Assembly (NCBI GenBank): GCA_022843625.1
Contig: JALHNH010000016.1
Coordinates: forward strand, 1-64,000
Direction: 5' to 3'
Source: Bryobacter sp.
Lineage (GTDB): Bacteria; Acidobacteriota; Terriglobia; Bryobacterales; Bryobacteraceae
DNA: 64,000 bases
The position numbers and the translations under genes are program-made. Positions 44,062 to 47,419 of the stretch are shown here, one piece after another; the first letter of the stretch is position 1, and each line of letters starts with the position of its first letter. The notes beneath the pieces are model-generated. The model made no database searches. It worked only from the letters and a program-made list of their open reading frames with translations, and was not told where the DNA came from.

Positions 44062-44096
44062 AAAAAAGCGCCTGCCGCGAGGGAAGCGGCAGGCGC
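44062..44096 (-). terminator. Rho-independent terminator for the OmpA gene
   Basis: Perfect 11-bp stem gcgcctgccgc / gcggcaggcgc with 7-nt loop; on the minus strand followed by TTTTTT. Confidence 0.85.
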
Positions 44097-44119
44097 CCGA
44101 GTGTTGAGAAAAACAAGGC

Positions 44120-44893
44120 TTAGTTGGAAGGTGTGCCAGTGGAGGAGACCTGTGCCGGGGCTTGGTCGCCAGCGACATAGAGTTTCATTTCCACGCGGCG
44201 GTTGAGTTTACGCCCATCGCGGGTTTTGTTGTCGGCAGTCTCATTGTCCATGCCGTAGCCGGCTACAAAGATGCGATGGAGGGGGAGGCTGTGTTTGGCC
44301 GTCAGGTAACGGACGACGGAATCGGCGCGTCTGCGGCTGAGCTCGAGGTTGAGATTCTTGGGGCCGGTGTTGTCGGTGAAGCCTTGGATTTCGACCACGA
44401 AGTTCTTTTGTGTGGTGACTTTTGCGACAGTTGAATCGAGCATTTCCATGGCTTCCTTGCCAAGCTCGGATTGACCACTGCGAAAAAGCACCTGATCTGT
44501 ACTGACTAGCTTGTAATTCTGCATGCCCTCAATGCGGGTGTTAATGGACTTGCCCATCAAGGTCATATCTTTGCCAAGTTGGTCGGCACGGACAAGACCC
44601 TGTTCGGCAAGATTCTTGCCGTCGGCGGCTTCTTTACGAGCGAGGGTTGCCTGCTCAGCTGCGGCGTCTGCTTTGCCTTGAGCCCCCTGAGCGCGCTCGT
44701 CGGCGCGTGATACGCCCCGTTCGAGTTCTTCGATGGACTTGGCCTGAGCCTTGGTCGTTCCGTCAAGATCCCCGACTTTTTGTTCAATGGGGGTGACAGT
44801 TGCTTTTACATATTTCTTCGTTGCGCAGCCGGTGATGAATGGCGCCAGTGCCAAGGCCGCGAAAGAAGTGGTACGGAGAATTGTGTTGGTCAT
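44120..44893 (-). CDS. OmpA-family outer-membrane lipoprotein
   Basis: MTNTILRTTSFAALALAPFITGCATKKYV lipoprotein signal; NFVVEIQGFTDNTGPKNLNLELSRRRADSVVRYL OmpA C-domain; SD AGGAG precedes ATG at 44893, so the ORF start at 45046 is probably not used. Confidence 0.9.
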   Translation of the reverse strand: MTNTILRTTSFAALALAPFITGCATKKYVKATVTPIEQKVGDLDGTTKAQAKSIEELERGVSRADERAQGAQGKADAAAEQATLARKEAADGKNLAEQGLVRADQLGKDMTLMGKSINTRIEGMQNYKLVSTDQVLFRSGQSELGKEAMEMLDSTVAKVTTQKNFVVEIQGFTDNTGPKNLNLELSRRRADSVVRYLTAKHSLPLHRIFVAGYGMDNETADNKTRDGRKLNRRVEMKLYVAGDQAPAQVSSTGTPSN

Positions 44894-44943
44894 TTTTTTG
44901 CTCCTGGGGTTTAAGGCGCTTTGATATTCGTCTGAGGCAAAGG

Positions 44944-45034
44944 CTCCGGCAGTGAATGGTGTGTTTCCACTGCCGGAGGCTCTATTCACGCTATCGGCAT
45001 TTTGTTGCCGATTGCTGCCTCCGAGCGTGAATAG
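44944..45034 (-). promoter_or_regulatory. Structured leader upstream of the OmpA gene: nested and tandem hairpins with a possible alternative pairing
   Basis: Perfect inverted repeats: 44944-44954/44968-44978 (11 bp), 44982-44992/45024-45034 (11 bp) enclosing 44993-44999/45006-45012 (7 bp). Confidence 0.7.
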
Positions 45035-45126
45035 AAGCGAAGTCATTGCATAAGGGAAATATGCAAGTTGTGTGCCAAAGTGGAAAATTTTCTTAAGTTG
45101 TTGATTCGAAATGGAAATGCGTGTCG

Positions 45127-45163
45127 GGAAAGAAAAGAGGGAAGCCTGTAAAGACTTCCCTCT
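45127..45163 (-). terminator. Rho-independent terminator for the PEP-CTERM gene
   Basis: 9-bp stem agagggaag / cttccctct followed on the minus strand by TTTTCTTT. Confidence 0.75.
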
Positions 45164-45190
45164 AAGGTAGAACTTACGTGAAGTAGGTGG

Positions 45191-45856
45191 TTATGCTTTG
45201 TTTTTTGTGCGACGGCGGAATGCGCCGAGGCTGATGAGCGCGCTGCCGATGAGGGCGAAGGTGGCCGGTTCCGGAGTTTGAAAGAGGATGTCCTGCTGGA
45301 CGGCATTGTTAAAGGCGATCAGATTCATTGCCTTGGGGCCAGTGCCGTCGAGAGCATCCAGGTAGATCTGCGCCTGAGCCATCATCGCGATGTTTTCGTT
45401 TCTGTAGCGGACGAGACCTGTCAAAACATTGAAGCCATTAGCCGCTTTGTCTTCGCGGATGATTTCCCAAAGAGCCATTTGCATTGCACCTGCCTGGATG
45501 TCGGGGAGTGCCACATTGAGATTCGGGTAGAAGCGGCCAATTAATTCACGCACGAAGTCAGCCTTAGCGAGCCCCATTCCGCCGATGTTTGTTGTGGCCT
45601 GATCGAGGGAAACGACGTCGTAGTCGAGAATCGATGGGGAGACCGGTTGCAGGGGCTCAAGACAAAACGTGAGGTAGTTGAAGCTATTATCGATTCGCAT
45701 GTTGAGCATGCTGAATCCGGGGCTTGTCCAATTTGCTCCGCCGTCTACAGTGCGTTGGGCGGAACCGCTGTTGGGGGCACTGATGAATTGGACTTTGATG
45801 GTGGAGGCAGAGAGCGAGGTGGTTAGGGCGAGGATCGCAAAGAATATTTGTTTCAT
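45191..45856 (-). CDS. PEP-CTERM sorting-domain protein 1
   Basis: Signal peptide MKQIFFAILALTTSLSAS; C-terminus TPEPATFALIGSALISLGAFRRRTKNKA (PEP, TM, basic tail). Confidence 0.88.
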   Translation of the reverse strand: MKQIFFAILALTTSLSASTIKVQFISAPNSGSAQRTVDGGANWTSPGFSMLNMRIDNSFNYLTFCLEPLQPVSPSILDYDVVSLDQATTNIGGMGLAKADFVRELIGRFYPNLNVALPDIQAGAMQMALWEIIREDKAANGFNVLTGLVRYRNENIAMMAQAQIYLDALDGTGPKAMNLIAFNNAVQQDILFQTPEPATFALIGSALISLGAFRRRTKNKA

Positions 45857-45891
45857 GTAGTTCACAACCTGATATTAGGAATAGGCTAGAA

Positions 45892-46804: not shown

Positions 46805-47419
46805 GTGAAATCATTTGTCGTTCTTTTTGTTTTGTGCGCCGCCCCACAAATAAATGCAGCAGTTGTGGTTCAGTCTTCAGGTCCAGGTCCATGTAACGTC
46901 ATGGCGTCGGATCTTCCTCGGTTAATCGCTTCTGCAGGCTACAATATGATTCCCAGTGGAGGATCTTGCCTGGTGCAGGTGGATTTTATCTTTCAAGTTT
47001 CAGGTCCTCTTAGACTTGGTGAATTGGAAGTAATCTACACGAAGGATGGCAATGCATCTGCTGGCATCTATGGTCTGGATTCGGAAATCCAGCTTGCAGG
47101 GTCCGGGATGAGGCCCGGGATGGATTTTGGCGGATTTCAAAATATCGAGATCCTGTTTGGCCGGCCGTACCGCGGTAGATTGTCCGCGATGGCCAACAAT
47201 AACGGGATATTTTGGAATTACGGCGGAATTTCTACGTTGGACTTAAGGGCGTTTGACATCAGCAGCCCATTCAGAAGGCCTGTAGAGATATCTTACTTTT
47301 CGCAGGTTCCGGTTGCCGAGAACGTTGAGACCCCTGAGCCTTCCACGTATGCCATGGTCGCCGGCACACTGGCTCTTCTGATTTGCGGGCGTAAGGTTGT
47401 ATTGGGAAAGAAAAGGTAG
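46805..47419 (+). CDS. PEP-CTERM sorting-domain protein 2
   Basis: Signal peptide; C-terminus TPEPSTYAMVAGTLALLICGRKVVLGKKR. Confidence 0.85.
   Translation: MKSFVVLFVLCAAPQINAAVVVQSSGPGPCNVMASDLPRLIASAGYNMIPSGGSCLVQVDFIFQVSGPLRLGELEVIYTKDGNASAGIYGLDSEIQLAGSGMRPGMDFGGFQNIEILFGRPYRGRLSAMANNNGIFWNYGGISTLDLRAFDISSPFRRPVEISYFSQVPVAENVETPEPSTYAMVAGTLALLICGRKVVLGKKR

Follow-up and report, generated by a model that had tools for sequence, protein, structure and literature searches.

The minus strand of the analysed window, a 64,000-nt stretch of DNA considered as a whole, carries ahead of an OmpA-domain lipoprotein gene, whose product is a cell-envelope anchor protein, a folded leader that, from comparison of its sequence among relatives in a genus of soil Acidobacteria, is in all likelihood a genuine control element. 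Our preferred reading, with a probability of about 0.6, is that of a cis-acting structured 5′ leader RNA found in one genus on a sigma54-driven lipoprotein mRNA, in which a conserved bulge would dock a trans-acting factor. The sequence-only reading had proposed a cis-regulatory RNA rather than coding sequence at this place, and three lines of evidence agree with it: a conserved orthologous site in six genomes, a sigma54 promoter upstream and strand-specific covariation. It had also said what would speak against it, namely a transcription start downstream of 44944, no conservation or covariation in relatives, or recurrence as a dispersed repeat. What we find is a predicted start near 45051 and a conserved, covarying element that is not a dispersed repeat.

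The lipoprotein gene and its sigma54 promoter

The gene downstream of the leader (44120..44893, minus strand) encodes a 257-aa protein with an OmpA_C domain (PF00691, E = 1.7e-19) and a signal peptide with a lipobox-like FITGC, its ATG (hereafter ATG2) being at 44893-44891. By its sequence, then, the "OmpA" of this locus is a lipoprotein with an OmpA_C domain (PF00691) and should not be taken for the porin. Orthologues within the genus show 54–87% identity, and against NCBIfam the protein fell under the cut-off for every listed model.

A sigma54 (−24/−12) promoter, TTGGCACACAACTTGCA, is located at 45078-45062 on the minus strand. It has the form TTGGCAC-N5-TTGCA, matches the full consensus (23.5/23.5) and is conserved in front of the orthologous gene in the six leader-bearing genomes and in many family members; rpoN was found in the genome. 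The predicted +1 (45051, minus strand) falls 12 nt past the −12 C, at fixed spacing, and is a purine in 6/6 leader-bearing genomes. We infer that transcription starts near 45051 from this promoter and, since the promoter puts the start there, that the leader is probably transcribed. A scan of the leader found neither sigma70-like nor terminator-like sites.

Upstream of the promoter, two half-palindromes, CGTAAGTTCTACC (45178-45166) and GGGAAGTCTTTACA (45160-45147), form a GGTAAN(3-4)TTACC-like arrangement (45147..45178, minus strand). Similar palindromes precede most family orthologues having a good sigma54 promoter, and such paired palindromes are probable sites of a sigma54 activator. GGTAA-N3/4-TTACC-like pairs, about 20 nt apart and roughly 60–110 nt upstream of the sigma54 promoter, were seen in the genus and in many family members.

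Terminator-like hairpins follow both the upstream PEP-CTERM gene and the lipoprotein gene (the latter at 44066..44098, minus strand, 3′ of the gene, an intrinsic-terminator-like hairpin from the consensus scan), so the unit looks monocistronic. The hairpin after the first PEP-CTERM gene (45163-45136) overlaps the second palindrome. PEP-CTERM-type proteins are encoded upstream of the locus at 45191-45865 and 46805-47419. Given this vicinity, and given that sigma54 sites are known upstream of PEP-CTERM genes in proteobacteria (PMC1569441), a regulon shared between these genes and the lipoprotein locus is possible.

Fold and conserved unpaired segments of the leader

The leader, 161 nt long between predicted start and ATG, has a minimum free energy (MFE) of −57.9 kcal/mol (z = −5.70), whereas its dinucleotide shuffles give −36.2 ± 3.8 kcal/mol and reach so low a value in 0/200 cases. 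Nested and tandem hairpins had been claimed for the minus-strand transcript, and both are found at the claimed positions. An 11-bp helix, P1 (45034-45024/44992-44982), encloses the 7-bp P2 (45012-45006/44999-44993), the two making up a bulged hairpin (P1-P2, 44982..45034, minus strand), several of whose pairs change on both sides with pairing kept; it is followed by the 11-bp hairpin P3 (44944..44978, minus strand; 44978-44968/44954-44944). About 17 nt stay unpaired before P1, which begins at about +18 from the predicted transcription start.

P2 is missing from G001, which retains P1 and the bulge sequence, and the inner part of P3 is expanded by an extra paired segment in G006 and G002. In leaders L005 and L006, P3 is bigger by roughly 40 nt and has its own inner hairpin, the architecture being otherwise fixed. 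A role of P3 as an intrinsic terminator or attenuator was dismissed, as it has no T-run, and the consensus scan returned no terminator-like site at P3. Searching the window against Rfam 15 gave 0 matches at the gathering threshold and, at a relaxed threshold, weak sub-threshold matches of which none was credible.

Nearly invariant among the unpaired segments is the one-sided bulge of 11 nt, CGGAGGCAGCA (45013..45023, minus strand), our proposed recognition site, in which 10/11 positions are identical across the six genomes and the first is either C or T. Also conserved are the first 17 nt of the leader and, upstream of the Shine-Dalgarno (SD), the motif ACGAATNTCANNGYGCC, with G003 the most divergent. 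In the interval between P3 and the SD, the motif ACGAATATCAAAGCGCC (44915..44931, minus strand) is conserved at the RNA level in the six genomes, and in G006/G002 it is found in a different reading frame. The SD itself, AGGAGC (44905-44900, minus strand), is invariant in all six and lies about 6–7 nt before ATG2, SD and ATG2 being about 40–50 nt downstream of P3. Only two sites show a GGA common to all six leaders: the bulge (leader position 30) and the SD.

Covariation and selection on the transcript strand

Covariation was measured on a six-way alignment of leaders, all from one genus. Changes on both sides of a pair, with pairing kept, were observed for 4/11 pairs of P1, 3/7 of P2 and 4/10 of the P3 main helix. 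Taken over the whole structure, this check across orthologous leaders, which had been suggested from the sequence alone, supports the fold: 11 pairs changed on both sides, compared with 4.8 ± 1.6 in shuffles, and 0/500 shuffles reached as many. The shuffles ignore relatedness and the sequences are six, so that the covariation is strong but 0/500 is not a formal probability. Helix cells are paired in 94% of cases across the six leaders, and the covariation signal is lost when partner columns are slid by 1–3 positions.

Non-Watson-Crick cells comprise 13 G-U and 1 A-C. Because the transcript strand alone tolerates G-U, selection appears to act on the mRNA-strand RNA and not on DNA palindromes or an antisense transcript. 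In every genome pair the leaders are more alike than the stretches of DNA directly upstream of them. In close pairs, synonymous/non-synonymous change in the leader is 0.08/0.09 and 0.14/0.19, and synonymous change is far lower in the leader than in the coding sequence (0.08 vs 0.50; 0.14 vs 0.58). A low synonymous change, nearly equal to the non-synonymous one, is what would be expected of RNA-level constraint. Plain protein coding was rejected as the cause of leader conservation, the codon signal being weak and the conserved motif being read in different frames.

Distribution among relatives

Orthologues of the lipoprotein gene were sought in 60 relatives, the genus belonging to Bryobacteraceae, Acidobacteriota. 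The element is present in 6/8 genomes of the genus (G000, G007, G003, G006, G002 and G001), once in each, and always sits between the sigma54 promoter and the same gene. A dispersed repeat was rejected on this single-copy, single-locus occurrence, and a phage, plasmid or viral origin on the lack of any match. In the six leader-bearing genomes the promoter starts 167–230 nt before ATG2. It starts nearer to the ATG, about 40–75 nt before it, in G004, the seventh orthologue, and in the majority of those members of the family, order and class for which a promoter could be recognised. The short distance in these other relatives suggests that the leader was added between promoter and Shine-Dalgarno.

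G004 lacks the element though gene and promoter remain, and the element would therefore not be essential to the gene. In the tree this genome and G001 both branch at the group's base, in an order that is not settled, so that the element may have been gained once, whether or not it was then lost once. In G005 (assembly 88% complete) a close orthologue of the lipoprotein gene was not found. A covariance model of the leader 5′ half, searched with filters able to lose weak matches, returned 0/229 other family genomes and, beyond the six, no other match in a 396-genome sample of the phylum.

An open reading frame through the leader

At about +6 there is an upstream AUG (ATG1, 45044..45046, minus strand) that shares the reading frame of the OmpA gene and lies 17 nt from the −12 C in 6/6 genomes. 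From it, a potential in-frame N-terminal extension of 51 codons (44894..45046, minus strand) spans the whole structured leader. That the ORF is formally open through the leader had already been remarked, and this holds: in the window it runs for 308 aa from the ATG at 45046, and the leader frame is open and of 3n length in each of the six genomes (45, 51, 51, 51, 65 and 66 codons). A chance simulation in which changed columns and branches were kept and target bases were random left all six open in 12% of runs, and four distinct lengths all divisible by three have a chance of about 1/81. The joint chance of about 0.0015 (0.12 × 1/81) is a rough, post hoc figure. Overall pN/pS is 0.70 in frame 0, compared with 1.13 and 0.98 in the other frames, and purifying amino-acid selection in the leader was not found in close pairs, where pN about equals pS. 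We take the open frame as an open observation, not as evidence for a protein extension. Gene-calling software may pick ATG1 (45046) over ATG2 (44893), giving a 308-aa annotation in which the lipoprotein signal and the leader RNA are hidden.

Discussion

In the mechanism that we propose, transcription from the sigma54 promoter would begin near 45051 and the transcript would fold into P1-P2, with its bulge, and the separate hairpin P3, with selection preserving these helices in the mRNA strand, as the sequence evidence suggests. P1-P2 would display the near-invariant bulge, on which a trans-acting RNA-binding factor would dock, and P3 would act as a spacer whose sequence is free to vary. Main initiation of the lipoprotein would occur at ATG2 (44893), and occupancy of the bulge would set either ribosome access to the SD or the decay rate of the mRNA. 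The most concrete candidate factor is CsrA, because the shared GGAs occur only in bulge and SD and because csrA is present in all six leader-bearing genomes (csrA is found in 7/8 genus genomes, hfq in 8/8). Against this link, the two GGA triplets on which it stands are separated by at least 100 nt of sequence and, GGA aside, the bulge is unlike the CsrA consensus. The preferred reading as a whole draws on six sequences of a single genus and on a predicted transcription start, a purely untranslated role leaves the in-frame ORF through the leader unexplained, and G004 has gene and promoter without the element. In addition, no conserved helix sequesters the SD, so that no classical on/off mechanism is visible.

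The main rival to the docking-site mechanism, on our analysis, is an mRNA stabiliser like the E. coli ompA 5′UTR, in which hairpins would keep RNases from entering at the 5′ region and neither a ligand nor a protein would be sensed. We consider it a possibility to be taken seriously, albeit an unlikely one: in its favour, the hairpins close to the 5′ end are very stable, the stretch after them, which bears the SD, is less structured, and the P3 sequence varies freely, but it does not account for the near-invariance of the bulge or for the conservation of the unpaired flanks. Moreover, the E. coli ompA stabiliser requires pairing at the extreme 5′ end, and no hairpin was found there in this leader, with P1 at about +18 and some 17 nt unpaired before it, both counted from the predicted start. 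More doubtful is a dual use of the leader, in which translation would start at the nearly leaderless AUG at about +6 and be read in frame through the hairpins into a longer OmpA isoform, a 45–66-residue extension preceding the lipoprotein signal and the structure tuning the choice of two starts. The shared AUG position, the 3n frame open in all six at four lengths, the chance of about 0.12 for openness times about 1/81 for length, and the frame-0 pN/pS would all fit. However, that chance estimate is rough and post hoc, close relatives show no amino-acid constraint (pN/pS of 0.09/0.08 and 0.19/0.14), G006/G002 read the conserved 3′ motif in another frame, and the AUG sits within a stretch conserved as RNA anyway. 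Besides, ATG2 has a good SD while ATG1 has no space for one, and the extension would bury the signal peptide. That one stretch could be both conserved RNA and coding extension, with the fold picking between the signal-peptide lipoprotein and a longer, differently located isoform, is a speculation to which we likewise give little credence.

A riboswitch-like change between mutually exclusive states, by alternative conserved pairings, seems to us improbable. The sequence-only reading had pointed to CGGAGGC (45023-45017) and GCCTCCG (44980-44974) as a pseudoknot or switch; the complementarity is there as described, but the pairing shows no covariation and mismatches interrupt it in G001 and G003, that is, in 2/6 leaders. 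The duplex amounts to −6.2 (G001) and −2.7 kcal/mol (G003) vs −12.8 kcal/mol in the window, and it competes with the P3 hairpin at −22.1 kcal/mol. Apart from this bulge pseudoknot, the switch could pair the 5′ end RYGCAAUGA.UUCG with the 3′ motif CGAA..UCA..GYGC, or GYGCC with the SD GGAGC. The complementary segments are conserved, RNAalifold predicts the GYGCC-SD helix and the MFE structure of some leaders contains a long-range closing helix; nonetheless, the closing helix has 0 double-sided changes and is broken in G003, and both it and the GYGCC-SD pairing have low probabilities in single sequences that include coding sequence. No conserved alternative pairing controlling the SD or a terminator was found in the six leaders. 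Palindromes working at the DNA level, as a dispersed repeat, a cruciform or an operator, would suit inverted repeats that adjoin a promoter, yet the single copy per genome, the absence of a phage or plasmid match and the G-U bias of one strand make them highly improbable.

In a phylum that has received little study, the leader appears to have come to lie between its gene and an old sigma54 promoter, and relatives with and without it open the gain of a post-transcriptional layer to comparative study. The bulge, being conserved, offers a direct way to look for the factor that would bind it, and the open frame makes start-site choice a question that can be put to the test.

Stabilising elements have been reported for the E. 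coli ompA 5′UTR (PMC7509114, PMC2777011), which resembles our case as a long leader with stem-loops on the mRNA of an OmpA-domain protein. Here, unlike there, the product is an OmpA_C lipoprotein and not a porin, no Rfam match was obtained, and the leader has 17 unpaired 5′ nt, a conserved bulge and a sigma54 promoter. In E. coli iraD, CsrA acts through an upstream ORF (PMC5574718); both cases present a GGA-bearing leader and a gene with an upstream ORF, with csrA present in the genus, but our leader has two conserved GGAs only and its upstream ORF is fused in frame, whereas the iraD type ends at the gene start codon. As in orphan cis-regulatory RNA motifs that comparative genomics has brought to light (e.g. 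PMC2864571), covarying helices and conserved unpaired nucleotides occur in the 5′ leader of one gene class, although here they are restricted to one genus and one gene and have no Rfam 15 match. With newness judged by absence from Rfam, this appears to be an undescribed orphan structured leader RNA of a known kind.
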